Assembly: GCA_037783545.1 (NCBI GenBank)
Contig: JBBELK010000387.1
Span: 1,488,001-1,552,000 of the forward strand
Direction of reading: 5' to 3'
Source: Henricia sp. BOLD:AAB3569
Taxonomy: Eukaryota > Echinodermata > Asteroidea > Spinulosida > Echinasteridae
DNA: 64,000 nt
A model generated the notes under the pieces. It saw only the letters and a list, made by a program, of their open reading frames with translations. It did not search any database and was not told the origin of the DNA. The translations under genes were made by a program, and so were the position numbers. This document shows, one piece after another, positions 6,501 to 59,520 of the stretch (within the stretch, counting starts at the first letter, position 1; each line of letters opens with the position of its first letter).

Positions 6501-9500
6501 CTCAGCTTCAGGGAAACACCATTCATGAGAAAATATTGGGGCATTCTGGGTAACATCATGATGAAACCATGGCCAGTATGTGACTTCTAAAAAACAAAAC
6601 TGGAACTTGGCTTCAGGGAAACACCATTCATAAATAAACATGAGAAAATATTGGGGCATTCTGGGTAACATCATGCTGAAACCATGGCCAGTATGTGACT
6701 TCTAAAAAACAAAACTGGAACTTGGCTTCAGGGAAACACCATTCATAAATAAACATGAGAAAATATTGGGGCATTCTGGGTAACATCATGCTGAAACCAT
6801 GGCCAGTATGTGACTTCTAAAAAACAAAACTGGAACTTGGCTTCAGGGAAACACCATTCATGAATAAACATGAGAAAGGGCAAAAGAGTAAATTTAGCAT
6901 GCAGCGCTCAGTGACATGTAAATAAGCAGCAGATTTGCATAATTTTGATTATTAGGCAAGAATAGTGCTTTTAGATGTCAGTATTAATTAATGATGCAGT
7001 AACATGTAAATTGACCAGTATTTGCATAAATTTGAATACAAACAATTGAATATTACACAAACTATCAAAGTTAAATGCTAATTAGTAGAAAATTTTTTTT
7101 TTTTAACCACTTTAATTTGACAGGACATTTTGATTAGAGATAAGACACCAACATAATGCATAGTTCCGAGATTGCCCAATTAACCCCGCCCCCTTGGATA
7201 TTGTTGCTATGCCTCACACGCTATCGTCAAAATGTCCACACACACTGCACAAACCAATGGGACTTTCAACGGAAAGCTCAAAGGTATTCGTGTTTCAGGG
7301 TCGACAGTTACTGTACCGTAGCACTTAGTAAAAGGCCAGTGATACAGAGATGTCATATATTCATAACAATACGCTTTCCTACCTTTGAACACCGAATTGC
7401 CCGGCCTTGAAACCAAAAATTCACCCCGAACACCACATACAACTTATGGGCAGAACATCGTGTGATGTTAGTTTGTAAGGCAATGCACTTTGACCTATGT
7501 GGGCGCTGTCTGCTAGCCCCGTTGTGATTGGTCGGCGGGTTCAGTTGATTGACAGGTCGGAACTATGCATTTATTCCTAAGGGTCGATTCAGACTAAGAC
7601 TTCGGGCGTAAATTTGATGTGCATCAATTTGAGAAAAAAGCGATGTGGAGGGAATTTGGAGTAAAAATATAGAGAAAACCACAGAATGAACTTGGACAGA
7701 AAGTGTTTTTGTGATTGTGCGTCATTTTACTTCAAACTCCATCCACATCACTTTTTCTCCAAGCGACGCGCATCAAAAATTATGCATGAAAAAGCAGTGT
7801 GAATACATCCTAAATGTGGCCAAACCTTGCACCAGCCCCAGACGACTAGAGACATTGTGTCACTCCCAAAAATGAAACTCGTCCTGCAATAAATTTCACG
7901 AAAAAGTGCGTAGCTTTGACAACTTTTGAAAATGGCATAGGCCCCATAGTTTGCGTGTAATGCATAGTTCCGACCTGTCAATCAACCGAACCCGCCGACC
8001 AATCACAACAGAGCTAGCAGAGATCACATAGGTCAAAGTGCAATGTTTGCAACAACATCACGCGATGTTCTGCCCCATAAAATTTGTACAGTGTTGTATG
8101 CGATGTTCCGGGTGAATTGTTGGTTTCAAGGCCGGTCGTTTCGTGGTTCTGTACGAAAGCACGTATGTCATGATATGACATCCCTGTATTACTGGCCCTT
8201 TACTCGGTGTGTTCTAAGATAATATACTCGGTGTGATCTATTAAAGATAACTGTCGACCCTGAAACATGAATACCTTTGAGTTTTCTCCAATGAATCTGT
8301 GCTTTCCGTTAAAAGTCCCATTGCTTTGTGCGTTGTGTGTCGCCATTTTATATCCAAGGGGGCGGGGTTAACTGGGCAAAATCGGAACTATGCATTATCG
8401 CAGAAGTGTTGAGCAGCTTATGCAATAAAAAATTGCACAAGTGGGCTTAACGCAGTGAGTAAGGTTTCGTGACTCAGCTGGTAGAGCATCTGTCCGGTGT
8501 GTCAGGCGTCTTGGGCAAAACCTGAGGGAGTATACCACTGTGCCTCATAGCTCAGCTGGTAGAGCATCTGCCCGGTGTGTCAGACGTCTTGGGGGGAAAC
8601 CTGAAGGAGTATACCACTGTGCCTCATAGCTCAGCTGGTAGAGCATCTGCCCGGTGTGTCAGGCGTCTTGGGCAAAACCTGAGGGAGTATACCACTGTGC
8701 CTCATAGCTCAGCTGGTAGAGCATCTGCCCGGTGTGTCAGGCGTCTTGGGCAAAACCTGAGGGAGTATACCACTGTGCCTCATAGCTCAGCTGGTAGAGC
8801 ATCTGCCCGGTGTGTCAGGCGTCTTGGGCAAAACCTGAGGGAGTATACCACTGTGCCTTATAGCTCAGCTGGTAGAGCATCTGCCCGGTGTGTCAGGCGT
8901 TTTTGGAAAAACCTGAGGGAGTATACCACTGTGCCTCATAACTCAGCTGATAGAGCATTTGCCCGGTGTGTCGGGCGTCTTGGGCCAAACCCGAGGGAGT
9001 ATACTACTGTGCCTCATAGCTCAGCTGGTAGAGCATCTGTCTGGTGTGTCAGGCGTCTTGGGCAAAACCTGAGGGAGTATACCACTGTGCCTCATAGCTC
9101 AGCTGGTAGAGCATCTGCCCGGTGTGTCAGGCGTCTTGGGCAAAACCTGAGGGAGTATACCACTGTGCCTTATAGCTCAGCTGGTAAAGCATCTGCCCGG
9201 TGTGTCAGGCGTTTTTTTGGGAAAACCTGAGGGAGTATACCACTGTGCCTCGTAACTCAGCTGGTAGAGCATCTGCCCGGTGTGTCAGGCGTCTTGGGGG
9301 GAAACCTGAGGGAGTATACCAGTGTGCCTCATAGCTCAGCTGGTAGAGCATCTGCCCAGTGTGTCAGGCGTCTTGGGGGGAAACCTGAGGGAGTATACCA
9401 CTGTGCCTTATAGCTCAGCTGGTAGAGCATCTGCTCGATGTGTCAGACGTCTTGGGGGAAACCTGAGGGAGTATATACCACTGTGCCTTATAGCTCAGCT

Positions 9501-10164
9501 GGTACAGCATCTGTCCGGTGTGTCAGAGGTCTTGGGGGAAACCTGAGGGAGTATACCACTGTGCCTTATAGCTCAGCTGGTAGAGCATCTGCCCGTTGTG
9601 TCAGAGGTCTCGGGTTTGAATCCTGGGTGCGGAAGCTGCTGTTACCATTCGCCACAACACAGATTACACCACGAGAGGCATGTCAAACAGACACAAGGCG
9701 CGTCTAGTTTGTTTGAATAAACTAAAATGGTGCATTTACATACTTCACTTTATTGAATTGATTTCGCATGGGTGCGCTATCTTGCACTTTTGCTGCTATA
9801 TCATCTTTGAGGAAGCCCCACCCATGCATGACTATAAGCGGAAGCTAGACAAGTTTTACAACAGTGGAAAGTCACCATAAACGAGCATCGTATCTGAACC
9901 ATAACAAGCGTTTGTTTTGGTGGTGTTTGATGCGAACAAATGGAATATTTAAAATACTACAATAGTTGGGAGCCGTGAGTGATGTTCACTGTAGCAGAAT
10001 GTTCTTTATTGTGTTTATTATAGCGAATTTCCACTGTAATAAAATTGAAATGATGGCAAAAAGGCAAAAACTTACCTCTCCTGTGTTTTCAGTATCCATG
10101 GCAACACGTCCATTTTTGTAGTGTGTAATATCAAGCTCCACAGTCTGTGGGCTCCATCTCCAAT
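3503..10164 (-). CDS. Candidate gene: C-terminal exons of an unidentified single-pass membrane protein
   Basis: Three minus-strand exons chain in frame. Exon A is 10076-10164 (acceptor 'attcacag', donor gtaagt; one base short of a codon at entry, then 29 codons starting WRWSPQTVELDI, exit phase 0). Exon B is 5275-5392 (acceptor after 'ggactag', entry phase 0). It encodes a hydrophobic stretch, VNPLVLLPLPMLGLIWTIGL, followed by a Cys/His-rich segment. Its donor is either gtattg (exit phase 1) or, 5 bases on, gtaatg (exit phase 0, exon low end 5270). The terminal exon is 3503-3559 (acceptor 'attgtgacag'), VTHVEDIKWTEPSAQPTT then stop, and fits the phase-0 donor. A further possible exon at 4059-4143 is open in one frame but does not join the terminal exon. 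Exon A is the most convincing. I do not recognise the family, and upstream exons are not found between 10165 and 16750. Confidence 0.42.
3867..3961. repeat. Short imperfect inverted repeat (about 45-bp arms)
   Basis: The left arm contains 'gaatgttggtaaaacatgga' and the right arm, read in reverse complement, 'gaatgttggtaaaacgcgga'. Both are bordered by CTGCAG. The arms differ by scattered mismatches, and the central part also pairs ('cgcacgcggtgtatgcg'). It looks like a small foldback MITE. Confidence 0.6.
4610..5225 (+). repeat. Clustered tRNA-derived SINEs interrupted by a MITE
   Basis: Two or three related copies are present. Each has a tRNA-like anticodon/T-arm segment ('ctctagaatgcagaaggttg', then 'gtgggttcgagtcccaccc', an internal Pol III B-box pattern) followed by a shared tail ('aacatag.tcttgggaaagc', 'ctgagc..aagtgctgata'). 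The copy at about 4978 keeps an A-box-like head ('ttgtcgaatggttaagacaa'). A MITE with ends GGGGCCAATTTCA / TGAAATTGGCCCCTG occupies about 4766-4965, inside the cluster. The same SINE family recurs at 59327-59520. Confidence 0.7.
4766..4965. mobile_element. MITE, 'GGGGCCAATTTCA' family
   Basis: Terminal inverted repeats GGGGCCAATTTCAcagcgctg / cagcgccaTGAAATTGGCCCC bracket about 200 bp with no coding capacity. Relatives lie at about 10812-11052, 42880-43105, 43170-43296 and 45255-45480. They share the ends and internal blocks such as 'ctttataaaa.tgg' and 'gctaa.cag'. Confidence 0.7.
5226..6103. other. Unassigned sequence containing candidate exon B
   Basis: Apart from the minus-strand candidate exon at 5275-5392, this stretch shows no repeat family or reading frame I can support. 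Confidence 0.35.
6104..6880. repeat. Seven-unit satellite, 105-115 bp period
   Basis: Units begin with 'attggggcattctgggta' at about 6104, 6219, 6325, 6430, 6535, 6650 and 6765. Each continues through 'catgatgaaaccatggcc', 'gtatgtgacttctaaaaa' and 'ctggaact..gcttcaggga'. The length steps (115, 106, 105, 105, 115, 115) come from an optional 'aataaaca' insert. The last three units share the 'ggaacttggcttc' variant, which suggests recent local duplication of that subtype. Confidence 0.9.
7152..8399. mobile_element. 1.25-kb foldback element with arms of about 430 bp
   Basis: The ends are 'ataatgcatagttccgagat' and its near reverse complement, 'atcggaactatgcattat'. The arms remain complementary inward: 'aaccccgcccccttggata' at 7181 pairs with 'tatccaagggggcggggtt' near 8350, and 'gattggtcggcgggttcagt' near 7527 pairs with sequence near 7985-8005. 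The ATGCATAGTTCCGA motif also recurs at the inner ends of both arms. The middle (about 7580-7955) is non-repeated and non-coding. This is a non-autonomous foldback or MITE-like element. A fragment of its end recurs near 30765-30805. Confidence 0.85.
8469..9660 (+). repeat. Fifteen-unit tRNA-derived tandem array (mostly 78-bp units)
   Basis: About fifteen head-to-tail units each contain an excellent tRNA D-arm/A-box ('tagctcagctggtagagca') and an anticodon-arm-like segment ('tctgcccggtgtgtcagg'). In fourteen of them the T-arm is replaced by 'cttgggcaaaacctgaggga'. Only the last unit (about 9562-9632) carries a full T-arm/B-box, GGTTTGAATCC at 9613-9623. Because 78 is divisible by 3, the array is open in several frames and gives a 26-residue peptide repeat, which I regard as an artefact. 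The array probably arose by tandem amplification of the 5' part of a tRNA or tRNA-headed SINE. Confidence 0.9.
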
Positions 10165-28700: not shown

Positions 28701-31700
28701 TGCGAGCAACAAAAATACAAGTTCAAACATACTATTACAATGACATGTACATGTATACGAGCACAATTAAACATTCAACAAACGTACTGCACTGGGGTAG
28801 AAACTATTGCGAGTGCGGTTAGAATCAGCTCGAATAATTGCTCTGTAGCTAAATGTAGCAGTACATTAAAGGCACAGGCTCGTCAGCAATGCGCGCGCGC
28901 CAAATTCGTGCCACGAAATACGCAGCTCCATGCCTTTGCTGTGGAGCTAGCTGCGTATTTCCTGGCACAACTTTGGCGCGCGCGCATTGCTGACGAGCCT
29001 GTGCCTTTAAGGGCAAATGGCCAGAGAAAACTTTGCACGATTCGACAGCATGACGAGATTCCAGGAGGTAATTTTACTGCACGCTGATTAGCCAAAGAAA
29101 AAGCTCAAAAGTAGACGCGCGCGTGATGCACACTTCGAGTGTGGTTTTTGAGGGCAGTCTGGATACCGTACCGGCGGGCGTAGCTCAGGCCAGCGCGGCT
29201 TGGTCCTAAAAAGCCAGACGCCGACTGTTCGGTGTCGTCGCATGCAAGGTCGACCTGAAGGCGGCTTTAGAAACTGCATGTTTAAGTCCTTGACTGGAAA
29301 GGTCGATAACAATTATATTCAATATGGCATCCGCAATGCGTACAGACAACATTCATCATAACCTTCAAAGACTCAAGAGGCCATATGTTTTTTTTTAATC
29401 ACGGCCAACATTTTCCAAGGTTCATTTTTACTCAGATGGCGACTCTGGCTGCGTTCGGGCGTGCAGTTCTCACTACTCCGGAGTAATGCGTGCGCATTGC
29501 ACTCGGGTCACATTACGCGAACGGCAAGTCCGAATGGCCATCAGTCAAGATGGCCCTCTCTTGCCATGACTACACAAAAAACGCCGTTTCACTGCTCACA
29601 AGAAACTGAAGAAAATACAGACGGTAAGTCGTGAGAACCTTTGATGCCGTCTGAAACAAACCTTAGTGAGTTATTGTTTCAGTTATCGAGTTGATACGGT
29701 GAGCAAATTCACAAAAAAATCCCACCCATATTCCACCATCTGCGTACAAATCACATGACACTCGTCAGGAGTAAGAGCACACTCCCCATTTGTTGGGTAG
29801 AGAGCATACTCTCATTGACCGAGTGTCGTTAATCAAGCCCGAACGCAGCCAATATGTCAAAAAGATCGCGTACAGGGAACCATCACTGTGCTCAACCATG
29901 GCGTGTCACACACCCAAAAACTGGGAACATTGCCAGTGTTGGGCCATCCTCTTGCAACAGTGCCCCTTTAACGCACTCCCTAACTCCTGCGTACAGTGGC
30001 CCTGTTGAAAAAGGCCCCATTTGGCGGTGGGACTAGCGACAGAAATCTTGTCGCCTCTGCTGGACCAATCAGGACGCTTGCAGTGCATTGTGCAGCACGA
30101 TTGCAGGCATTCAAATGTAACGCGCGCAGATTGTAAACACCGTGCATGCATGTGATACATGTACTCGGTAATGCTGGCTGTTGTCCGCGTCGGCGATTGG
30201 CTGCTATTTAAAGCATATTGGGGAATCCGTTCCATTACATTCGTCAGCATGCATCCCTGTTATTAATTTGAAAAACTGCGGAGTAAATAAGGTTCGTCGT
30301 TTGAAAGTTTGGTAGGAATGGGACAGTCATCAGGAACGGAACCCAATACAATTTCTGGAAAGTATAGAAATTGTTTCTTTTCGGCATAACATGACCGAAT
30401 TGATTAAATTACATCAAAATGACTCGGGCGTGAGTTGGCTCAAGACAACAGCCGGCTCGCTCCACAGATTTGCGTGTATTTCCTCAGGGTATTGTCACGT
30501 CGCTTTGCAGAGTAGAAATTCCCTGAGATCTCAGGATGGTGTTGGGCCGAACACAAAGGCATGGTTTTGTGTTCTTTTGACAATTTTCATTACTCGGAAT
30601 TCAAAGCGTCTCCGTATAAGTTTAAGTGACATAAAAGTTAATGGCGCACCCCGCTATGAGACACCACAGTAAACGATACTATATAAAATACAAAATATTC
30701 AAAAATCGTTTTAAAATACTTTTGTTTGCGATGGCTTGTGAGCACATAGCAACAGTATTTAAGGGCAGGGTTAACTGCAGGGCAATCTCGGAACTATGCA
30801 TTGGTGACTTCAATATTCCAGTTGACATCCCGCGGATGAAATTATAACTTATGCTGGTACTCAAATCACGAGACTAAAGTCATAAAACTGTCACAGAAAG
30901 GTGCTTGTATAAAACTATAGACTTTTTTTCTTCTTAAATCAGTCAATCAATGCTTACCATTTAAATACCAAATCATACTTTTCTTTGAATCTGTATTGTA
31001 CCCTTATATTTTTATGAAAATGCATATGAAACAGTTACACGGGTTACATTGTGTGCATACAAAATATTCAAAAATCGTTTTAAAATACTTGAAAATCCCA
31101 CAACGTATCGGGACAAAAATCAAAATACTCAAAGTCTCATCTTTCAATTCATTTCAATTTTATAGAGATAGCCCGTCAGTTTTATTCACTAATTTCCATT
31201 TGAAATAAAATACCCCGCATAAAAGTGAAAATTGCCAAACAATTTTTTTTGGGTACTTTAGGGCTACTTTTGCGAGCTATATAGATCACCCAAAATACGT
31301 ACAGTTGGAAGAAAAAAATACCTCACATCACAATGACGGGCAATTTCTACACTTAGACCACCATCGTTTAGCTCTCGACTCTCTCTAGAAAAATCAGGGC
31401 ACAGTAATACTTATGAGATCTGCGCATCTTTGCCTACGGGATGCACCCTGTAAGAATATCTCAAAGTCTTAACAAAATAAAAGGTCATTACATTATGAAA
31501 TTTCAGTCTACTCCACAAATTTCGGAAGTGGGAGTCCTTAAACCTACCTCAAAAACTGATGAAATCCGCATGTCGTAGTAAAGGGGCACGAAATAATACA
31601 AAGCTACGAATCCACTCAGAAATACAGGAGCCGCCGCCCATATGCCCATGGTCCCTCGAAAATACACATCTGACGGAATTCCTTGCAAGGAAATACCGGA

Positions 31701-31895
31701 GAAATAGCTCGCCAACAGGGAAAGCGTGACCGGCAATACGGTCATGCGACGGTTGGCCAAGACGTACTCGGCAGAACTACGTTGCCGGCCGCCGGTTAAA
31801 CTGTAATAGACGCCGATTCCCACGGAAAATAGCAAAAGGGTGCCGCAAGCGGCGTAATCTGCGGCTCGAAACACATGTCTATCCATTATCGACAA
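16754..31895 (-). CDS. Sodium:solute symporter, SLC5 family (SLC5A8/A12/A6/A5-like), complete, 15 exons
   Basis: A membrane cotransporter predicted to couple Na+ to uptake of a small organic anion or similar solute at the plasma membrane. Exons: 31548-31895, 28514-28579, 27691-27742, 26670-26737, 25055-25209, 23652-23792, 23047-23176, 21767-21855, 21162-21274, 20445-20512, 19729-19815, 19160-19383, 18313-18413, 17329-17459, 16754-16831. All have GT donors and AG acceptors, and phases join throughout to give 616 codons, usual for the family. Family hallmarks are GIGVYYSLTGGRQ (residues ~26-38), VTLSLLASYFSG (56-67), GGIKAVLWTD (179-188) and GGASHGPVLALYLLGALYP (416-434). N481-Q-T and N505-V-S lie in the loop before the last helix, where relatives are glycosylated. 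Start: the first ATG of the exon 1 frame; M4 is an alternative. The tail ends CSMK, without the PDZ-type end of mammalian SLC5A8. The substrate cannot be read from sequence. Confidence 0.93.
18090..18262. mobile_element. MITE fragment, 'cctatttaggctggtccc' family
   Basis: Read in complement this contains 'cctatttaggctggtccctt' and 'aaaaaccaacctgtgtataa'. These blocks are shared with 39765-40035, 43866-44060, 47387-47580 and 56868-57010. Several copies also carry 'gattgaggatgtgtatgata' and a 'tgattggtaaactgtta' end, resembling the 16091 family's ends, so the two families may be related. Confidence 0.6.
19405..19495. mobile_element. Half copy of the 28866-29010 palindromic MITE
   Basis: Contains 'aaaggcataggctcgtcaat', then 'gcgcgcgagtccaaattcgt' and 'cacgaaatacgcagctccat'. 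It matches the left half of the intact copy and ends near the centre. It lies in the transporter intron next to exon 12 (which ends at 19383). Confidence 0.7.
19874..20237 (-). repeat. Full-length tRNA-headed SINE with (AAT)n tail
   Basis: On the minus strand it starts with a tRNA-like head ('ccgtggccgagtggttatat', then B-box 'ggttgcgggttcgaatacgg'). It continues with a body containing 'tgcccttgggcaaggcactc' and 'aagatcccagagcattctt', and ends in an (AAT)n run at 19876-19898. The 'ttgggcaaggcact' block is also in the 61000 SINE. Bodies of this kind are, from memory, common in marine invertebrate SINEs. It sits in the intron between transporter exons 10 and 11. Confidence 0.8.
20575..20845. 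mobile_element. Two adjoining MITE fragments
   Basis: 20575-20660 is a diverged half copy of the TATAGACCGTATC family ('agatcgtatcaaatagctgc', 'aggacatgcattgttgcaca'). From 20667 ('tttaaaggagcgtgtccaga') to about 20845 it is a 5' piece of the TTAA element whose intact copy is 49953-50321. Confidence 0.6.
21457..21608. mobile_element. Palindromic MITE, TATAGACCGTATCGAATAGC family
   Basis: About 150 bp with inverted ends (ccgtatcgaatagccgccat, then ttcgtggggca, and the complement), bordered by TATA. Near-identical copies lie at 41300-41455 and 45086-45225 and a half copy at 20575. TA-type duplication and high palindromy suggest a Stowaway-like, Tc1/mariner-related MITE. It is located in the transporter intron between exons 8 and 9. 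Confidence 0.85.
22457..23036. mobile_element. TTAA-flanked MITE family, copy 1
   Basis: Begins 'ttaaagggctgtgacatgct' and ends 'aaggggccctttaa'. It is almost identical to 49236-49772 over some 480 bp (for example 'caataaaaggtggccttttt', 'cagacagagggcgctgtttt' and 'acatagtgaccttggtcat'). Ends starting TTAAAGG with TTAA duplication suggest a piggyBac-type non-autonomous element. The long minus-strand reading frame inside it is a by-product of the repeat. Its right end abuts transporter exon 7 (23047). Confidence 0.8.
23513..23575 (+). repeat. Fragment of the 'cacctctgtggccc' SINE
   Basis: 'gtacttt.ccttgccttccacctctgtggccc' matches the tRNA-like head of copies at 57670, 59615 and 60446. Nothing of the body remains. 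Confidence 0.5.
25461..26466. mobile_element. 1-kb non-autonomous element with CACTGTAAAAAA ends
   Basis: TACACTGTAAAAAA at the left and TTTTTTAACAGTGTA at the right bound 1 kb full of 'acagt'/'actgtt' motifs in both arms. No transposase frame is evident. The flanking TA fits a Tc1/mariner-type duplication. It lies in the transporter intron between exons 4 and 5. Confidence 0.6.
26766..27465 (-). pseudogene. Truncated non-LTR retrotransposon (CR1/L2-like), reverse-transcriptase C-terminus
   Basis: On the minus strand, frames with several stops encode a degraded end of a LINE ORF. YLGTVISHDLKRAEN and KAQQRLYFVRRLK are followed by a segment leading to LNRVVRTASRIIN, YEKCLLRRAKLIAQDSAHPA and ELLPSGRR-like LLPSGRRFCALKTKTTRF. 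This series is typical of the C-terminal region of CR1/L2/Rex-type elements. The intact part runs to a stop at 26961. A 3' untranslated part follows, ending at 'tgaatgaatgaatgat' (26766), a tail type used by this clade. It is 5'-truncated and dead, and sits in the intron between transporter exons 3 and 4. Confidence 0.8.
27484..27690. repeat. Direct repeats flanking a MITE piece, abutting a splice donor
   Basis: 'cataaaaatgtaacacttaa' + 'tggctcctgttttatagaaa' (about 27488-27530) recurs as 'cataaaaatgtcacacttaa' + 'tggctcct' (27636-27680). Between them lies sequence shared with 34425-34530 ('caaggaccagcatttaaatg', 'acgatgtcagccgac'). The second direct copy ends a few bases from the donor of transporter exon 3 (27691). 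Confidence 0.65.
28622..28860 (-). repeat. Probable LINE 3' untranslated fragment
   Basis: On the minus strand the sequence ends 'tgacaaataaattgaaattg' + 'aaattgaa', a short-repeat tail of the kind seen at the 3' ends of CR1-like elements. It is preceded by 'cattgtatgttttta'. No coding remnant is convincing. Confidence 0.45.
28866..29010. mobile_element. Intact palindromic MITE with TTAA-like ends
   Basis: The 65-bp inverted ends 'aaaggcacaggctcgtcagc' + 'aatgcgcgcgcgcc' and their complement are almost perfect. They are separated by a short centre 'tgcctttgctgtggagctagc'. Flanking TTAAA / TTTAA fits a TTAA target. Decayed copies are at 19405 and 14742. Confidence 0.8.
29944..30539. mobile_element. 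hAT-like MITE copy A (596 bp), with target duplication
   Basis: Ends CCATCCT / AGGATGG, flanked by TGTTGGG on both sides (29937-29943 and 30540-30546). It is about 95% or more the same as the opposite-oriented copy B at 32218-32810. Internal 'gctatttaaagcatattggg' resembles a TATA region. It has no coding capacity, and the open frame over it is shared by both copies. Confidence 0.85.
30540..31547. other. Transporter intron 1, end nearest exon 1
   Basis: Contains a repeat segment (30828-31070: 'cccgcggatgaaattataac', 'ttatgctggtactcaa', 'tattgtacccttatattttt'). Its relative is at 42199-42425. A short tail of the 7152 foldback family lies just before it (about 30765-30805, 'ctcggaactatgcattg'). 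Nothing else was recognised. Confidence 0.6.
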
Positions 31896-32217
31896 TTTGG
31901 ATGGTTTTTTAAAGTCGGACTAAACTGTAAACTGACAATGTTGCTAATCGTACTCCGAAGCGCAATTCAAGGCACGCACTTAACGTCAAATGGTTCTGAA
32001 CACTGCCAATACAGTCCGTTTGCGTTATTTTTCCGTTTGTGTGATGTGTAGGGAATACAGAGGTTTTAATTATCTGTTACAGATCACTAACTTTAACGCG
32101 TGAGAACCACTCACCCATATACACCGTCACGCACTCAAGCGTAACCACTCAGGCGAAAAACAATTGTCAGTATGGCGGCCGAACATAAAGGCTTAGCCCT
32201 GGTGTTCTATATACATG

Positions 32218-32810
32218 CATCCTGAGATCTCAGGGAATTTCTACTCTGCAAAGCGACGTGACAATACCCTGAGGTAATACACGCAAATCTGTGGAGCGAG
32301 CCGGCTGTTGTCTTGAGCCAACTCACGCCCGAGTAATTTTGATGTAATTTAATCAATTCGGTCATGTTATGCCGAAAAGAAACAATTTCTATACTTTCCA
32401 GAAATTGTATTGGGTTCCGTTCCTTATGACTGTCCCATTCCTACCAAACTTTCAAACGACGAACCTTATTTACTCCGCAGTTTTTCAAATTAATAACAGG
32501 GATGCATGCTGACGATTGTAATGGAACGGATTCCCCAATATGCTTTAAATAGCAGCCAATCACCGACGCGGACAACAGTCAGCATTACCGAGTATTGTAT
32601 CACATGCATGCACGGTGTTTACAATCTGCGCGCGTTACATTTGAACGCCTGCAATCGTGCTGCATAATGCACTGCAAGCGTCCTGATTGGTCCAGCAGAG
32701 GCGACAAGATTTCTGTCGCTAGTCCCACCGCCAAATGGGGCCTTTTTCAACAGGGCCACTGTACGCAGGAGTTAGGGAGTGCGTTAAAGGGGCACTGTTG
32801 CAAGAGGATG
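32218..32810. mobile_element. hAT-like MITE copy B, inverted relative to copy A
   Basis: Same element as 29944-30539, reverse orientation, flanked by ATATACATG at 32209-32217 and 32811-32819. The different target duplications show two independent insertions rather than one inverted duplication. It lies about 320 bp upstream of the transporter start codon, so it may overlap the promoter region. Confidence 0.85.
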
Positions 32811-32975: not shown

Positions 32976-33330
32976 TTGTTCCCCCCCCCCACCCCCCCCC
33001 CCCCCCCCCCCACCCCCCCCCCCCCCCCACCCCCCCCTTCCCCGGGCTGCTCCACCTAAGAGGTGGGTATTGTCACTTTTCGCGAGACAAAATCCCCATC
33101 CCTGGGGCAACATTTGGGTGACAAAATCCCCACCCCTGGGGCAAAATTTGGGTGACAAAATCCCCACCCCTGGGGGGGGGGGGGGGGTGAGGAGAGAAAT
33201 ACGCATGTTTTTCCCCCAGGTGCGCTGAAAATTGGATTTCTATTTGTCAAAATCCCGACCCTGGGGCATGGAAATCATGACAAGATCCCCACCTAAGGGG
33301 TGGGGCAGCCCGGGGGAGGGAAGCCATTGA
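32976..33330. repeat. Foldback with long poly-C and poly-G runs
   Basis: 'attgttcccc' followed by about 65 C-dominated bases, then 'ccccgggctgctccacctaa'. After a centre holding three copies of 'gacaaaatccccaccc' and a 19-G run near 33171-33189, the right side gives the complement 'cccacctaaggggtggggca' then 'gcccgggggaggg'. A related G-run with 'gggtgacaaaatc' is at 63355-63420. The long C/G homopolymers are likely to be unreliable in any assembly. Confidence 0.7.
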
Positions 33331-33475: not shown

Positions 33476-36400
33476 CTACAGTCTAGTTGTATCCGTGTCT
33501 ACCGACTGCGCGGCCCGGCTATCCGTCTGAGTTCCCGAAGCATCTAGCAGAACGGCCCTCTTTTTGGTCTTTCGCCGACGTCTTGCACGCCGTCGTCCCA
33601 CCAACTCGCTAAGCTGACCTCGCACTCTCGCCGTGGTGCAGAAACTCAGGAAAATTAGAACGCCTTGGAGAGAGTTCAGAATGACGAAGATAAAACGCAT
33701 GGCGTAGCCGTCGATGACTTGAGTTAGAAACCCGAAGATCCAGGTTAAACCCATGAGAACGCACAACTGAAAAAAGGAGAGGGGAAAATAACAAATAACT
33801 GCGTCATTTCAGGAAAATTCCGGGAAGGCGCAGTGGCCGATTTCACGAAAAAGGGCAAACGAAACCACGTACACAGTATGTAATTATTTCTGAGATGCAC
33901 CAAGTTTGAAAAATAGCCTTAAAGTATACATGATTAGTAAACCGTAACAAATAGTTTCATCCCCTGTTTGATTGAAGGTATGCATGATTAAAACCAACCT
34001 GAGCAAAAATGCGCTCCGTTCTTCGTCTAACGTTTGAGAAAACAGTCAAAAAATTGTTTACAGTCACTTCGCCCTGAACCATGGCCTGGACCTGTGCACG
34101 AAGCTGATTTGGGGCGAAGTGGTATTTGGGCGAGGTAGTGTTTGGGTGAAGTGCTTCAGAGCGAAGTGCTTCAGAGCGAAGTGGTCCAGAGCGAAGTGGT
34201 CCAGAGCGAAGTGGTTTTGGGGCGAAATGAATTTACGTCTCGCGAGACGAAAAATAATTGTTTTGCTCATTTCTCATTTCTCAAAGACTATAGCACTTCA
34301 GACAAAACCATTTCAGGGGAAGTTTTCTACCGTCATCGTGTTTATATTGTGTAAGTTATGTGTAAATCTGTGAACATTTCTGATTCCTCGGGATACCAAT
34401 CATGTATTCTATCTATAGTAAGACCCGTCTACGTGAGCCAACATTGAGGCAACAAGGACCAGCATTTAAATGACGATGTCAGCCGACAGAAGGTGGGATG
34501 GTGTGGATGCCTCCCCAGACGTCCATGTAGCTGTCGCTTAACCTTGTTGGAGCTTATTGGATGAAACGGACCAATAACAGATTAGAACGCCTGTCACGTA
34601 TAGGCAGCAACCAACTGCAGTCCAGATATGTTGGAACATGTTGGTTCGCGCGGTCGAGTGCATCCATGTATCGCCCAACAAGTTCCAACTTCATGTTGAT
34701 GCTGACTTCATGTTGATGCATGGTAGAAGGACCTTTAGATATGGATTAGAACAATAGGTATATCGTCTCTTACCCTGACGTAGATGGCGAACTCGGCTTT
34801 AGCCTCTTGCAGTCTTGTTTCATTCCGAGCCATTCTCGTGGCAGCCCTTGAGATCCGAAGCTTTGTCACTGAGAAAACAAACAGGCATATACTCGTCGCG
34901 AGGGCCAACGCAACCGGGATGCCGAACGCGTACAAGTTCACCTTCGGGTTGACGATGTAGCAGCTGATCGCGTTCGTGTAGATCGGGCCAGTTCGGGTAC
35001 ACTGGCAGAAGTGCAGAGCGACACAAATGCAAACGATGGCGAACGAAATCCCCCAAGCGCATAACATAAAGAGAAGAAGTGATTTAGTTGTGGAACCGGC
35101 TGTTTTAATGATGACTTTGCTAGAGATGGTGCGCGCTACGTTCACAGATAACATTGTCATCCATAGAAAGGCTGCCAACCACGTCAAATGGGTGATGGGT
35201 GCTATGGTTAAACATAGTGTTGGCATATCGATGAAGAATCCATTCAACAAAAGTAGAAGGTTAGCCACAAAGAGCGCTACCACTAGGTTCATAATGCATT
35301 GTCCGGCAAGGTTCCGCAGACTTTGAAGGATGGAGTATATGATAAAGGTGGTTACAAGTGCTATCAATGAAAGAACGGTTAGAACTAGGTTCAGATATCG
35401 ATACACTAAATCGATTACAGTGGCTTCCGTTGGGCCAGAGGTCACGGCGTCTGCGCAAACAATCGCTCTCCCGTCCTCAAGAAGGACGTAAGTATTTACG
35501 GGCAAATTACGTCCGGATAGCACATACGTAACTACAGAAACGTTTTCTTTCTCAGATAGTACATACTCAGATTCATTCAATGTCACAATAGAAGGACACG
35601 TTAGGCTAAGGTCGAGACATACACTCTCAATCTCAGAAACCAGGTAGATTTCTTTTATGAGATCATAATCGAGCTGACGCACAAGTGTGAACACAGTTAT
35701 GTTCTCCAACTTTGGGTAGCCTTCAAAAAGTTTGGATCCCGGTACAGAATAATCAAGACAGATATCCACCGGAAGAATGCTTGCGTCTCTTAGGTAGAAG
35801 GTCACTTGTGTTGTATTGCACCAGGTTGTGTTTAAAGAACTTTTGATGATCTCGTCAAGGACAGTTTTGTTTTGGATTAAGACGTTGACAAGAAGTGTCT
35901 TCGAAGAGCCTTCTGCAATGGCCCCCTCCCAGTATATGATGGATTCTATGATTTGACCAAGAGTTGCTTTGAGACAATCCACCAAGTTAAGATTGACCGT
36001 GTTGTTGGGATTGTAGGCAAATGCAGCACTTGGTGGAAACATTCCTTTTGGTTTCATTGTAGGTGCTGGCAAAGCCCGGACGCATTTCCCATTTTGGACT
36101 TCGTATCCAGGGACACAAGTTAGAACCCGACATTTACCAAGAAACGGGTCATACACCTCGCCCGTTTGACAAGTTACCGAGCCCTCGAGCGAGCTGACTT
36201 CGCTTTTAAATTTAAAAAGCACATCAATTGTTAGGAATCCATCTAGATTCCCCGCGCACTGCGCGTGGCATATGCCCCATGGTTCCGTATCGCAGAAGGC
36301 ATTGCAGAAGTCATAACTGCAAGAATCTGCGATTGTAAATGTGATATTGTTACACCGAGCACAGTAGGGGTTACGGTAGTTAGTTATCGGCCCTGAAAAT

Positions 36401-39400
36401 GTATCCGGGCGGTAGCTTACGGCTGCAGAGTACGCCTGGCAACCCATCTCCGATTTGCTCCCACGGTGCTCCTCTAAGCATGTATCCACGACAGGAACCG
36501 AACACCTCCGAAATTCACCGTTCGGAAGTGTCGGTGCGGTGACAACGAACGCACCCGTAAAAGTGCCGAAACCAGGGGCAACGACCCCGAAGTTCCCAAG
36601 AAACTTTTCGCCTTCCGAACTTCCAGAATAACGGGCTTGCACGTCCCACGGAACGACGCGTTCGTATTTTTCACCGTGACAAACTGCACAGTAAATGTTC
36701 TTGTACTGGACAAATGTTATGTTATTATAGACGGGAACTTCGGCAAAAACATCGGAAACATTTAGTGATTGTTCACACATCCCACGCACGTAGTCCTCCG
36801 GCCACGGATCGGGACATTTACTGATTAAAAAGTATCCATCAAATTCTGTTTCAAATCCCGGGACGTCCACGCAGCCGAACCAACCAATAGGAAGGCCGTT
36901 CAGTGACGTAGCCGGGTCACGTGACTGGGGGTTGCAGTTTGTATAGTAGTCATAGCAACAGTCGTTGAAGACCACGCATGCGTCGTCGCAATGGCATGCG
37001 CGTCTAGCAAACCCGCTGACGTCCAAACGCTGGGCGCATTCCGTGCCGCACAGGTTGTCGTTCCCGCAAAGTCCAACTTCGGTGCCGTATTCGTTTGTTA
37101 CTGATAATAGAGAAATATTGAGATTATAATTTTACTTTTACATATTTAAGAAATTGGTACACAATTTCTAGGGATATCTGGACATAATGGACTTACTTTT
37201 AACCCTGAAACGGGGACCTATATATCAACGTGCAGAAGGCGTGTGACCTTCTGGTCACACAAAGAAATATACGTTGAGACGCTTTTTGCAAGCACCACCA
37301 GAAACTAACATTATGCCAAGTCAATGTCCACTTTATTCGTTGCAAATTGGCACACAGCCAGCTAAACTCAAATTATTGTTTCATTTTCCCAGTAGGGTAA
37401 AATTTGCACACAAACCTATAGAGGCATATTTTTTCCGCCAATTGTGCGACAGCCAAAATGACCCTGTGACCAAACTCCCCTCTGAAAATAGTGCCTTTGC
37501 CGTTTATCACTACGAGGTCAGGGGTCAAAATAAATAATTTTGTGTAGAGGTTTAGTCACACACACACTTTTTGTGGGTTAAATGACGTGTGAAATAGGGT
37601 TTTTATTAAATGTAATAATAGTAGAAGGTGTGTTTTACACATTTCGGTCAATTTCAGAAAATTTGATTGTTCCGTTTTGGTGTAATTGCAAGTTTTCTAT
37701 TTTTATGCTAATGAGAATTTTCATATTCATGAGCAAATCCGTGATGTCATCTCAGGACAACAGAGGAAATCTCTATTGACTTGTGTACAAACGTTTTTGT
37801 CATTTTCAGTGACTTATTGGTGTTACGATCTGTAACAGTTTACTGAGTTTGTTAAGTATGTCATTTGCAACAATCCCAACAAGTTTGTTTGGGTCAGAAA
37901 TGGATCAGTGGGCTACTGGTACTGTTTGAAATACAATGTTCTTTCTTTGTTTTTCAACTGTGGGTTCCCTCCATGACTAGCAATAAACAGCGCCCTCGTC
38001 TGTCAAGAAAATTTTGAAGTAGATAAAAGGTCACTTCTTTCTGAAATGAAAACAAAGTTCAGTTTGCCCCTTTGTCTGCAACACTTTGATCTTCTGATTC
38101 GTGTATAAAAACAAATGGTTGATAATTTTCACTTCACTAAACCTTTAAGCTAAAAATCTGGATTTTTATTTACCTCTCCCGCACGAAAGTCTTGGGACTG
38201 ACGTGCACGACGTCCGCACAAGGCCGAGCTGACACTCCATAATATCCGACTCGTCCCCGGTACACCCAAACTCGGAAATCAAGACACCTTTCGGATTTGA
38301 CTCTGAAGCCGAAATGGTCAGCCCTTGTGTGTTGACTTGAAAAGCGAATCCAAGATGGCGGCACGCTACGTCTGCATCGCGCATGTCCCAAGTGCGGGTG
38401 GAGCATACGGAAAGCCAGTTTTGGCCACCCCTACACCGGGCTTGGACGAGTCCAGTGTAGGATGATAAAGGGTCTGCTAGACGCAGTTCAAGGTCACCTA
38501 CGTCTAGAAAAGAACGATAGAAAACAGTAGTTAACACATTAACAGTTAACGAGTTGACGCCGGAAATATTTTTGGCAATAAATAATTTTTTTTGTTTGAA
38601 GGCAAATGTGATTGGCCAAAAGTTAATACCAGGTCAAGCACCACAAATACCGACTCCAAGAGTTATTTCTACGTATCCATTGTATGAATCTTCTCACCAA
38701 AAGATAATATACTCTGCAACACTCCGATGCGGCCGCCACGGAGCGAGATTTGCTATACGCTGACAAGGCCGCCACAGCCGTCAAGTTCAAGTTCAAAACA
38801 CGGTGTGTACAAATGAATGGTGGACAATGGACATGTTTACACGTCAACCGTGGAATACAGTGGCAAAGCTGACGTTTGAACTCCTCAACCGGCGCTGTGA
38901 CGGATACATTGCCAGAACGTGTTTACACGTCCTCCGGCGTCATTTGCACCGGCGGGCATGACAGGGGATGACAATAGATCCACAAGGTGCCTGTTCATGC
39001 ATGACGCACGGTGACAATAGGGACCATTACAAATGGTACGCGTACGGGAAACGTATGCGGCTTGCAAAATCTGGGTTGTTATATCACAATTTTGCGTGGC
39101 TGTTCAAGAAATGTGCGGATGTGTACTTGGTTATATTGAATGTAAAAAGTCACATTACCTATGCTGTGCAGACAAAATAACCGCACAAACTGTTGGTACA
39201 ACCATCCCGTTTTTCCCAGCCGCATATGTTTCCCGTATACGCGTACCATTTCTAATGGTCCCTAGTGTGACTGCCCCTGTCATGGCCGCACATATGCAAA
39301 AGGTCTATAATCTTACCCGATGCACAACGCAACCACAGATTGTGGCTCGTCGTCGAACACTCCATGTTTCCCGCTTGGACGCCCGTAATCACACAATCTT

Positions 39401-40363
39401 GCTCCCAAGGCGTGGGTCCCAGCTGGCACGGACCAAAAACCAATTCCTCAATTGGGCCAAGATTCGCAATCGGGCGCACGCCAGTCCCGTAGTCACATGC
39501 AATTTTGTGCCCAATTCTGGAGCATACACCAAACGCGATTGTGCGGTCTATTGCGGTGACATTGGTGCATATTGTTAACCATGGTCCATCTGGTGGGTCG
39601 GCGTGCTTGACTTGTACGTAACCCTCGTTTGGATTGGTTCCGCCTACCAGACGAAATTCGTCCGTCGATATCATACCTGTAAAAAATAAACGGTGCGTTC
39701 AGTCAATGAGACCATGGGAACGAGGTTAAACACACCATTTAATATTTTAATCACACCATTTAAGTTTACACGATTGAACATGTTCACAGATTAGGCCTAC
39801 AGGATTGGTAAACTGTTACAAACGGCGTTATCTCCATGTGTGATTGAGGATGTGTATGATAAAAACCAACCTGTGTACTACATAGGCCTATGTCAGCTAG
39901 CGCTAGCTCAGTGCCTCATATACGTTCCAAGAAAACAATGAACAAATTATGCGAAGCCGCCGTCCTATTTAGGCTGGTCCCCTTGCTATACTGCATGGAC
40001 AACTGAGCCATAACACCACGGACGTCAGGGACCTAGTTTCGTACACATGAGGACGCCCTTTTAAAATAATGTGTGTGCACATGTATGTATATAAATACAT
40101 CAGTCTTTAATTATCACTTTCCTTTAAAAAGATACCATCTCGGGCGGAATCATTGCATTGGACAGTTGTGGAACCACTTCTATCTTCCATTCGAGTAATT
40201 TTGTTTTTGGTTCATTAAGATTTGGGGACTCCAAATTCTGCAAACAGGCTTTATAAACACACTTACCCACGCTTAACGCGAATTGTGAGGTACAGGGTTG
40301 GAAGTTAAGGAAAATACAAACAATGCCAAGAATTTTGGAAAACATCTTGAAACTTGGAAGCAA
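33476..40363 (-). CDS. SRCR-SRCR-somatomedin B-7TM receptor (family B/methuselah-like GPCR), complete, 5 exons
   Basis: Exons: 40267-40363, 39317-39676, 38174-38503, 34774-37100, 33476-33766. Phases join to give 1134 residues. Order: signal peptide (MLPSFKMFSKILGIVCIFLN, hydrophobic core then Cys), SRCR 1 (~39-152), SRCR 2 (~156-261), a somatomedin-B-like Cys cluster (C274 to C318, with DACVVFNDCCYD), and a long Cys-rich ectodomain with repeated 'KNIYCAVCHG'/'RNPYCARCN' motifs. Seven helices follow from about 831, with GLTWIFGF in helix 6 and NSLQGVLIFLSFC in helix 7 (typical of family B/adhesion receptors). No convincing GPS cleavage site is visible. A basic tail RRRARRRRKTKKR follows and the end is T-R-L, fitting a class I PDZ ligand. 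The 2.3-kb exon 4 carries the SMB-to-helix-5 part. Likely a cell-surface receptor; ligand unknown. Genes of this type are expanded in marine invertebrates. Confidence 0.9.
33917..34425. mobile_element. MITE family of 16091, copy 2 (inverted), in receptor intron 4
   Basis: Shares 'cgtctcgcgagacgaaaaat', 'acttacacaatataaacacg'-complement and the internal 'gcgaagtggtccagagcgaa' simple repeat. In this copy that repeat is a clean tandem of 'gaagtg(c/g)ttcagagc' units at 34146-34215. Next to it, 34425-34530, is a fragment shared with 27540-27630. Confidence 0.75.
37101..38173. other. Receptor intron 3, no repeat boundary set
   Basis: Includes 'tatttttatgctaatgagaa' and 'tgatgtcatctcaggacaac' blocks resembling the TTAA family (22457, 49236) in general plan but not in close sequence. 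It may be a distantly related element at about 37550-38145. Confidence 0.4.
39011..39274. mobile_element. Foldback MITE in receptor intron 2
   Basis: 'gtgacaatagggaccattac' + 'aaatggtacgcgtacgggaaac' at 39011-39060 is mirrored by 'gtttcccgtatacgcgtacc' + 'atttctaatggtccctagtgtgac' at 39227-39271. The centre is non-coding. It lies between the two SRCR exons. Confidence 0.75.
39765..40040. mobile_element. 'cctatttaggctggtccc' family copy in receptor intron 1
   Basis: Contains 'ggattggtaaactgttacaa', 'gattgaggatgtgtatgata', 'aaaaaccaacctgtgtacta', 'gtcctatttaggctggtccc'. It is the most complete member of the family noted at 18090. Confidence 0.65.
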
Positions 40364-42552: not shown

Positions 42553-43440
42553 TATGTACAACTGGTGAGACCCGTTACTTGATTTAAATACATGACCAGG
42601 TCTCAGTGGTTAGTTGACAATTATTTGTACTAACTGGCGAGACCTGTTACTTGATTTAAATACATGACCAGGTCTCAGTGGTTAGTTGACAATTTGTACT
42701 AACTGGTGAGACATGTTACTTGATTTAAATACATGACCAGGTCTCAGTGGTTAGTTGACAATTTGTACTAACTGGTGAGACATATTACTTGATTTAAATA
42801 CATGACCAGGTCTCAGTGGTTAGTTGACAATTTGTACTAACTGGTGAGACATGTTACCTGTTACTTTCATACATGACCAGGGGCCAACTTTATGGCACTG
42901 TTTAGCACAAAAATGTGCTTACCACAGAATTTCTTTGCTTTGTAAAATGGATTTCCAGCCAAAATTGTACGTCAAATTGTATTTTTAGAGACACCAGCAA
43001 AATACCAGTAAATACACATCACATTATACGATTTTGGCTGGCAACCCAGTTATGCAAAATAAAGCAAATAAATTCTGTGCCAAAAACAGCGCCATAAATT
43101 GGCCCCAGGTCCGAGTGGTTAGTTGATAATTTGTACTAACTGGCGAGACATATTACTTGATTTAAATATGCCAGGGGCCGATTTCACAAAGCAGTAAGAC
43201 GTGTCTTAGGAACGGTCACTCTTCTTATCTTGGGACGCTGGTATGGGAACTAGGAAGCATTGAACTCGTCTTAACTTTTGTGAAATTGATCCCAGGTCTC
43301 AGTGGCTAGTTGATATAATTTGTACTAACTGGCGAGACCTGTTACTTGATTTAAATACATGACCATGCAGGTCTCAGTGGTTAGTTGACAATTTGTACTA
43401 AGTGGGGAGACCTGTTACTTGATTTAAATACATGACCAGC
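42553..43440. repeat. 69-bp satellite interrupted by two MITEs
   Basis: Units of 'ctggtgagacatgttacttg' + 'atttaaatacatgaccaggt' + 'ctcagtggttagttgacaat' + 'ttgtacta' repeat at a 69-bp step (for example 42703 and 42772). After four units the array is broken at about 42882-43108 and again at about 43172-43298 by elements with GGGGCC.A.TT ends. It then resumes each time in the middle of the unit ('ccaggtc.gagtggttagttg'). Confidence 0.85.
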
Positions 43441-43865
43441 ATGTCTGTTTTTGAGAAAGCAGCAACTGAAGATTGCCTTTAAAACATGAATGTGCACACT
43501 AATTTTTGTAATATATTCACATACTTCGAAAACACAAGGGATATTGCAACATATAATGAATTTCCAAATTACTAATTAACTACATATTTAAACCCGAGCT
43601 TACATTTTTAGCGATTTGTTTACTAAACCTTCTCTTTAGGTGGTCGCGTACAATTTCATATAGTGGTTACAATTCAAATAGGCCTACGGTCTTAATATTC
43701 CCCCCACGTTGCGGTGCAAATGTGCCTGTTATTTTAGCATAGCGCCCTCTTTAAGTACATGCGTTCTTTTGCTGATAGAGGGCGCTACGAAATTGCGACA
43801 TGAGTAATACTCTTGGCGCCATTTTGTTTCCAGAAACTGCGCATGGTTCTGATCTGGTTCTTTTC

Positions 43866-57925: not shown

Positions 57926-58096
57926 CTAAAACCTTCTGTGTAAGTGTTGTGAGAAATCCTTGGTTTTAGCACATTAACATTCACCTAAAATCTCGTTTTT
58001 GTTCTGTTTATGTTTCTGCAGTCCTCTGGGCTAGCTCCGATCCTCCTAGCTTCTCCATCGACGGACTTGATTCTGCGGTGGTGCTTGGCTAGCCTT

Positions 58097-58120
58097 ATGG
58101 ATGTTCATGGAACAAACTGA
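58097..58120 (+). other. Short upstream ORF overlapping the GATA start
   Basis: ATG at 58097 opens MDVHGTN then TGA at 58118-58120, out of frame with and overlapping both candidate GATA start codons (58101 and 58107). Such an overlapping upstream frame could reduce initiation at the main start. This is an inference. Confidence 0.5.
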
Positions 58121-59220
58121 CATCGCCTGGTCCCATCAAGGAGCACTGGCCAAGTCTCCGTACGGCGACCACCAGCAGCAGCAAGCGGCCACCGAGACAG
58201 CAGACAGCGGCACCGAGATCTCCGGGAGTGAGTCTCAATCCAGTCCGGAAGAGCTTGATCAGAGTCCGGGATCTGAATCGCCTGATCCTCGCTCCGCTAG
58301 TGGCACCTCGTCGCATAACTCCCCAACTTCTTGGGTCTCATCACCTCACCACCAGGCCACCTCCAGTCAGCCCTGGTCACTAGCTGATCCTCGCTCCGCT
58401 AGTTGCAACTCGTCGCATAACTCCCCTACACCTTGTGTCTCATCACCTCACCACCAGGCCGCCACCTATCAGCCCTGGTCTCTAGCTGATCCTCGCTCGG
58501 CTAGTGGTACCTCGTCCCATCACTCCCCAACACACCAGGCCACCTCCATTCAGCCTCGCACCGTCTCCTCTCACAACGCTGCCGAGTTGTACCGCACAGC
58601 CTCAACTTGCCTGGCCGAGCCCTCCCAGCTTCTACAAAGCGAAGACGTGGAGGTGTTCTTCAATCATCTAGACCGTCAACCTTCGCACCACCACCAGGTG
58701 CTTCCTCAGCATCCCAACTTGCACCAATACAACCCCTCTATGATGTACCCTTCAGCCATGTCCAACCTGCCGAACGCCACGGCTGCCGGCATCCAACATT
58801 CCTACGATAACTTTCTGCATTCAGCGGGAAGCCCCGTCTACGTGCCTACAACCCGCCCGTCCGTGCTCTCCATGCCGCACACTCACTCCTCGCAGTATCT
58901 GCAACAGGCTACGCCGAGCGGATCGCCACAAGCCGCCATGCAAGCAGCAAACAACCACCAGGCCGCTGCTGCTGCCGTGTGGAGCCAGCAAACAGACGGT
59001 GGTTATACCTCCACCACGACCTCGCATCATCCATCTGTTGGTCAGCGGTTCGCATTCCCTCCTAGTCCACCGATCACGTCCCCGGCGGCTCGGCATGGTA
59101 GTACGGCACATAACGGTCTGGGTGCTTACTACGTCAGTTCTGAGATTGCTTCATGGTCTGCACCGTTCGATAGCTCAGTGGCTCTACATCCCAACATGAT
59201 CGCAAGACGACCAAGTCCAG
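58101..59220 (+). CDS. gatae: GATA4/5/6-class transcription factor, first coding exon (partial gene)
   Basis: The exon begins after an acceptor 'tatgtttctgcag' (ending 58021) with 79 bases of untranslated sequence, and ends at the donor gtaagg (59221), phase 1, after 373 codons. The N-terminal transactivation region shows the class signature AGSPVYVPTTR (near residue 244), WSQQTDGGYT, RFAFPPSPP (near 316) and ASWSAPFDSSVALHP (near 350), in the order seen in vertebrate GATA4/5/6. Residues 62-153 are a 34-residue tandem repeat (DPRSASGTSSHNSPT...). Elsewhere it is Q/H/S/A-rich, as expected for an activation domain. The start may be M1 (58101) or M3 (58107, better context). The two GATA zinc fingers must be on later exons beyond 64000. 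In echinoderms this class is an endomesoderm regulator (known biology). Class assignment is firm; the exact symbol is less so. Confidence 0.85.
58284..58559 (+). repeat. In-frame 102-bp tandem repeat within the GATA coding exon
   Basis: Units start with 'gatcctcgct' at 58284, 58386 and 58488, exactly 102 bp apart. The first two are full (34 residues) and the third is truncated to about 24. All are in frame, so repeat number can vary without breaking the protein. Confidence 0.9.
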
Positions 59221-59326
59221 GTAAGGCTTCCATCAATTTCAGACACTTCATTTATATCCGTCAAAATAGAATCGCATTGTCAGTTGCGGTACCCGCTGCT
59301 AAACGATTCGAACCGACTGCTCAACG

Positions 59327-59520
59327 CCGGCCAGCTCGGTGGTCGAGTGGTTAAAAGTCTGCCTAGTATGCAGGAGGTCGTGAGTTCGAGCCCCACCCGA
59401 GCACGCTATGAACTTTTTCTCAGTATCTCAGGGAAGCGCTAAGTATGCAGTTGCCTGTATTTAACCGCGTTACGTTGGGTATAGGGCAAAGCAAACTATA
59501 ATTAACATAGAACAAGTATT
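59327..59520 (+). repeat. tRNA-headed SINE, same family as 4610-5225
   Basis: Head: 'gctcggtggtcgagtggtta', anticodon stem 'ctgc-ctagtat-gcag' (7-base loop, nominal anticodon AGT), B-box 'gagttcgagcccc' and 'cccgagc' pairing with the start. The tail 'tcagggaagcgctaagtatg' matches the family. The head is tRNA-like enough to mislead a tRNA finder, but the tail identifies a SINE. Confidence 0.7.

Follow-up and report, generated by a model that had tools for sequence, protein, structure and literature searches.

An SRCR-SRCR-somatomedin B ectodomain on a putative family-B seven-helix receptor of the starfish Henricia sp., and its paralogs

The window, that is, the whole stretch of 64,000 nucleotides analysed here from Henricia sp. 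contig JBBELK010000387.1, holds a receptor gene of five minus-strand exons, which we placed by their splice motifs and then joined (Table 1). The five exons joined in phase form a real gene: the four introns are all GT-AG, their phases are 1, 1, 1 and 0, and a single frame runs through all of the exons. Counted from the first ATG, the joined coding sequence has 3387 nt and encodes 1128 amino acids plus the stop. The sequence-only reading had proposed one receptor of 1134 residues; its in-phase chain of five exons was confirmed, while its length has to be corrected, because its end at 40363 lies 18 nt (six codons, none of them ATG) before the first ATG. The other two points that it made about the exons, namely one SRCR per exon with phase 1-1 borders, and a somatomedin B (SMB)-like part sharing a 2.3-kb exon with helices 1-5, were both correct for this gene, and the latter arrangement is also the rule across the paralog family described below. 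Phase-1 borders read by eye agree at the second SRCR of the paralogs on C316 and C250 and at the donors of both SRCRs on C1118.

Table 1. Features of the receptor gene (positions within the window)
Feature	Position	Strand	Basis
Exon 1: ATG and hydrophobic signal-peptide-like start (MFSKILGIVCIFLNFQPCTSQ)	40267..40345	-	signal peptide by eye
Exon 2: first SRCR, degenerate, phase 1-1	39317..39676	-	under Pfam cut-off; closest relative is the first SRCR of C1118
Exon 3: second SRCR, phase 1-1	38174..38503	-	Pfam E 4.3e-13 for the exon alone; CD163 and other SRCR structures
Exon 4: somatomedin B, Cys-rich ectodomain, helices 1-5	34774..37100	-	splice motifs, Pfam, profiles
Somatomedin B domain	36928..37050	-	PF01033, exon-4 residues 17-57; vitronectin SMB by profile
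Fastest-changing ectodomain stretch of the tandem subfamily, exon-4 residues 151-330	36109..36648	-	limits set after sliding plot
7tm_2 match, helices 1-5	34792..35400	-	exon-4 residues 567-769, E 2.2e-11
Exon 5: helices 6-7, cytoplasmic tail, stop	33476..33766	-	splice motifs, Pfam
C-terminal TTRL, class-I PDZ-ligand pattern	33479..33490	-	sequence pattern

The encoded chain begins with a signal-peptide-like start, followed by a degenerate SRCR, a good SRCR, the SMB domain, a long Cys-rich ectodomain, a family-B seven-helix (7TM) domain and the tail ending in TTRL. The second SRCR matches Pfam PF00530 at residues 162-247 (E 8.8e-14), its exon alone scores 49.9 bits against a cut-off of 26.1, and a structure-database match shows its resemblance to CD163 and other SRCR structures. 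The first SRCR, taken alone, stays under the same Pfam cut-off (16.1 vs 26.1 bits, E 0.014); it was found over its first half only by an in-house profile of the family SRCRs that had been trained on its own relatives (E 4.3e-11), and its likeness to solved SRCR structures is only distant (MSR1, E 0.012). The somatomedin B match is marginal (PF01033, residues 274-314, E 6e-5; 23.7 bits vs a cut-off of 23.1), and its nearest solved relative is the SMB domain of vitronectin. The 7tm_2 match at residues 824-1070 (E 6.5e-17, 62 bits vs 20.6) covers model positions 5-250 of 250 and takes in all seven helices, whose nearest solved structures are adhesion receptors (ADGRD1, ADGRG6). The Methuselah_N ectodomain (PF06652) had no Pfam match in the window gene or in 26 family members. 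The proposed SRCR-SRCR-SMB ectodomain on a family-B-like 7TM is matched by Pfam in its second SRCR, its SMB and its 7tm_2 domain, with the first SRCR being weak, and it is highly probable that the SRCR-SRCR-SMB-7TM chain is encoded by one gene.

Several other features were noticed around this gene. A poly-C tract (32981-33037) lies downstream of it, and a 15-nt tandem repeat (34148-34215) lies inside intron 4. At 31503-31919, on the minus strand, there is an exon of the sodium:solute symporter family (PF00474, E 8e-7), flanked by an inverted pair at 29945-30538 and 32218-32810 (arms of 377 and 215 nt, 98-99% complementary) that suggests a mobile element present twice. A 78-nt unit, which by eye resembles a tRNA gene start, is repeated in 14 tandem copies at 8473-9604, and a related unit of 69-73 nt is tandemly repeated at 42555-42881 and 43293-43446. 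An open frame of 427 residues on the plus strand (58071-59354) has a high content of Ser, Pro, His and Gln and no Pfam match; to our eye, its last part bears some likeness to the N-terminal region of GATA factors. Elsewhere in the assembly, contig C955 carries three cox1 copies 16,221 nt apart (L076-L079), which looks like a head-to-tail mitochondrial assembly artefact. The mitochondrial genes fit an echinoderm source: TGA is read as Trp in the cox1 frame and the 13 AAA codons listed stand at Asn positions, as expected under the echinoderm code, while ND1 and ND2 are encoded on the other strand from cox1, an order typical of starfish.

We searched the 740.7-Mb assembly (2104 contigs) with exon 4 and obtained 75 matches; manual merging left 56 SMB-7TM-like loci, a number that includes alleles and fragments. 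By hand count, clustering the 29 whole exons among them at 96% DNA identity gives 18 groups, and several exon-4 copies each stand in tandem arrays on C171, C266, C622 and C233. All 26 aligned members match 7tm_2 and 25 of them match somatomedin B (Pfam, E 0.01); matches to a phage-holin model in 7 of the 26 and to Frizzled in 2 we attribute to chance resemblance of membrane sequences. The exon for helices 6 and 7, used as a query, gave 82 matches, 56 of which were entered, and 54/56 loci have such an exon at most 6 kb downstream and in the same orientation. The second SRCR was likewise used in a genome search, in which 150 of 488 candidates were scored. Among its best 20 matches (self included), 19 are found at most 20 kb upstream of an SMB-7TM exon and on the same strand, as are 68 of the 150 scored, compared with about 0.1 of 150 expected by chance according to our arithmetic, although copies made by duplication are not independent of one another. 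With these 150 of 488 candidates scored, at least one SRCR match stands upstream at 41 of the 56 loci. The first SRCR gave six matches with E <1e-4 (self included), five of them upstream of an SMB-7TM exon. Two SRCRs precede the SMB exon also at C316, C250 and C1118, and five further SRCR matches stand in an array within 6 kb beyond the SRCR next to C171:833455. Judged by these matches, the window gene belongs to a sizeable family of echinoderm (probably starfish) receptors.

A tree of 30 rows places the 24 SRCR-bearing rows in one clade (support 97/93), and by exon 4 the window gene is sister to C1118 (99/99); the tree carries a long-branch warning, and the window row is among the long branches. 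The SRCR-upstream pattern is present on all deep branches of the main clade, where copies that arose together are not independent. The first SRCR of the window gene also has its closest relative in the first SRCR of C1118 (34% identity, E 7e-12). One SMB-7TM relative outside the main clade (L044, C917:114000-122300) has two weak SRCR matches upstream, and groups with relatives showing none in about 5.6 kb upstream (no SRCR was seen within that distance of C387:190554, C99 and C250:468993). This suggests either a second gain or a loss in the neighbours of C917. A single acquisition of SRCR was considered but not retained as a conclusion: with C105 and C691 unlabelled, two changes are required on the tree, and one change sufficed in only 14% of bootstraps.

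The C-terminal end of the receptor was compared among 26 last exons, in 24 of which the stop was reached. Class-I PDZ ligands have the form S/T-x-hydrophobic at the C-terminus, and TTRL, which fits this pattern, is a putative ligand of that class. An S/T-x-L/F/M end is found in 21 of the 24 tails with a stop, TTRL being the form in the window, and DTKL, ETKL, DTHL, ETKF, DSHM, DSQM and DSRM the forms elsewhere. The three tails without the pattern are those of C9 (VKLK) and of C171:1917858 and C715, both of which stop early. The tails of L033 and L024 end early at a stop, and the near-identical L034 reads on where L033 stops; some copies or alleles of the family may be truncated. Since the tail sequence ahead of the terminal motif differs widely between subfamilies, the motif itself seems to be kept for a reason. 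The suggestion of PDZ scaffolding, made before from the T-R-L end, gains from the presence of a PDZ-type pattern kept in most readable tails, and docking of the receptor to a PDZ scaffold through its tail seems likely.

As the window gene lacks a close paralog, the rates of change given here come instead from the largest tandem subfamily, in which 14 exons were examined and 12 counted, the near-copies L035 and L072 being dropped; L070, with a broken frame, was excluded. In this subfamily the Cys-rich core next to the SMB domain evolves fastest and the SRCR is conserved. Pooled dN/dS over the 12 genes was 0.42 for helices 1-5, 0.67 for the membrane-near ectodomain, 1.28 (CI 1.02-1.63) for exon-4 residues 61-330, and 1.48 (1.14-1.96) for residues 151-330, the limits of which were chosen after the sliding plot. 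For the SRCR, a value of 0.37 (CI 0.21-0.70) was obtained from 17 sequences of the same subfamily that are not paired one-to-one with the exons. In the three parts of exon 4, pN exceeded pS in 58/66, 4/66 and 1/66 pairs, and the loops of the Cys-rich core differ in length among the tandem copies. Positive selection on the core was not retained as a conclusion. When columns at most 4 positions from a gap were removed, dN/dS of residues 61-330 was 0.95 (0.63-1.48); with three gappy genes excluded it was 1.13 (0.78-1.72), and 1.49 (0.97-2.50) for residues 151-330. Because the CI crosses 1 under most of the stricter gap filters for residues 61-330, we claim only fast change for the core; the values suggest selection for change in a manner that depends on alignment filtering. 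The same residues gave 0.72 and 0.26 in two other subfamilies.

Could the SRCR exons come from a neighbouring gene, which would make the joined model an artefact? The many SRCR-only arrays elsewhere in the genome (C949, C46, C248 and C317 among them) would allow for it. However, the paralogs repeat the same order and strand, the phases match, no other SRCR was found in the 64-kb window, and kinship by the first SRCR agrees with kinship by exon 4 in pointing to C1118, which makes such an origin very improbable. The linkage of 19 out of 20 best matches, the single supported clade and the pairing of the window gene with C1118 by both of its parts argue that the SRCR and 7TM exons almost surely belong to one gene. 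A different question is whether this is an ordinary adhesion receptor (class B2, defined by a GAIN domain with GPS) whose GAIN/GPS region has drifted past sequence recognition. The kinship of its helices to ADGRD1 and ADGRG6 would fit this, as would an H-x-[STC] triplet before helix 1 in 7 of 37 exons, five of the seven being HLS. Against it, Pfam finds neither GAIN nor GPS in any of the 26 members at E 0.01, the C-x-C-x-H motif is absent from all 37 exons, and profile matches to adhesion receptors begin only a little ahead of helix 1, also in cases where the chain includes more of the ectodomain. Single-sequence structure prediction of exon 4 reached a mean pLDDT of 37, and the GAIN/GPS call is therefore made by sequence only. 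We consider the drifted version unlikely, and a receptor without GPS cleavage quite probable, in line with the missing clear cleavage site in the sequence-only reading; by sequence, the B2 hallmark of GAIN with GPS was not found.

The sequences show the domain architecture, a conserved tail end and no GPS that can be recognised; from these we infer how the receptor might make its contacts, choose its ligand and signal. The SRCR and SMB modules would tether it to a partner that varies little, be it matrix, glycan or protein, and which ligand is bound would depend on the Cys-rich core and its variable loops. The 7TM domain would signal via G proteins with no self-cleavage at a GPS, and binding of the tail to a PDZ scaffold would anchor the receptor at a particular membrane. 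As a whole, this GPS-free SMB-7TM family-B cell-surface receptor, with the ligand picked by the core and the tail on a PDZ scaffold, is our best explanation and has about an even chance of being right; ligand choice by the core, taken alone, falls slightly short of that. Echinoderm immunity employs large SRCR, TLR and NLR repertoires. An immune pattern-recognition GPCR, the idea raised in the sequence-only reading and taken here to mean that the SRCRs bind microbes and the 7TM domain signals in coelomocytes, would suit the many tandem copies in this genome, the expanded and coelomocyte-expressed SRCR genes described in sea urchin (PMC7308585, PMC3308324) and a starfish SRCR protein cited as an opsonin (PMC13409769). 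Nevertheless, it is fairly unlikely: the SRCRs would then be the variable recognition part, but in the sole subfamily that could be compared they are conserved, not diversifying, and the Cys-rich core is what changes fastest. A chemosensory family, with tandem copies sensing environmental or conspecific molecules through a variable core, would be consistent with the arrays on four contigs and with a fast core next to conserved helices; SRCR and SMB modules are not known to have a chemosensory role, however, and we consider this less likely still. Going beyond our best explanation, one may picture a tandem-expanded echinoderm repertoire of GPCR sensors for microbes or chemical cues, with constant SRCR/SMB modules, a hypervariable Cys-framed core whose loops differ by substitutions and indels, and one PDZ scaffold, an idea that we put forward as possible but doubtful. 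If true, recognition and G-protein signalling would be united in one molecule, which bears on fast signalling in echinoderm immunity. The family supplies concrete genes to test, and if the ligands turned out to be chemosensory, it would be an equally testable sensory repertoire.

All component parts of the receptor are already known, and SRCR with SMB together on a 7TM is apparently new within the open-licence literature searched, where we found no description of this combination, of the PDZ-type tail or of the fast core. Methuselah-like receptors have been counted in sea cucumbers (PMC7042368), and an Mthl expansion is reported in Strongylocentrotus purpuratus (PMC4768249). Mth/Mthl receptors with SMB are given for N. 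vectensis (XP_001628572), B. floridae (XP_002608881) and S. kowalevskii (XP_006821924); like the window gene, they place SMB before a family-B 7TM and have no Mth ectodomain, but SRCR is not mentioned in what that source says of them, and the likeness drawn here is one of domains (PMC4768249). Amphioxus adhesion GPCRs carry SMB, Kringle or SRCR, so that both of our modules occur on its family-B receptors; SMB is described there with Kringle in a ten-gene group, SRCR and SMB together are not stated in the account, and many of the receptors have a GPS (PMC2246102). The Amphimedon adhesion GPCRs Aq712029 and Aq715659 share with the window gene repeated SRCRs on a family-B 7TM but belong to a sponge, and the text has no somatomedin (PMC4302439). 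The closest parallel comes from another starfish, Acanthaster planci, where SRCR with 7tm_2 is tabulated among the five commonest SRCR partners (PMC10855680, Table 1). That report is a domain tally whose main text is without somatomedin, and the comparison covers SRCR and 7tm_2. The combination, earlier called unusual, is thus less so than supposed: it forms a family in this genome, and in A. planci, as here, SRCR and a family-B 7TM are found in one starfish protein (PMC10855680).
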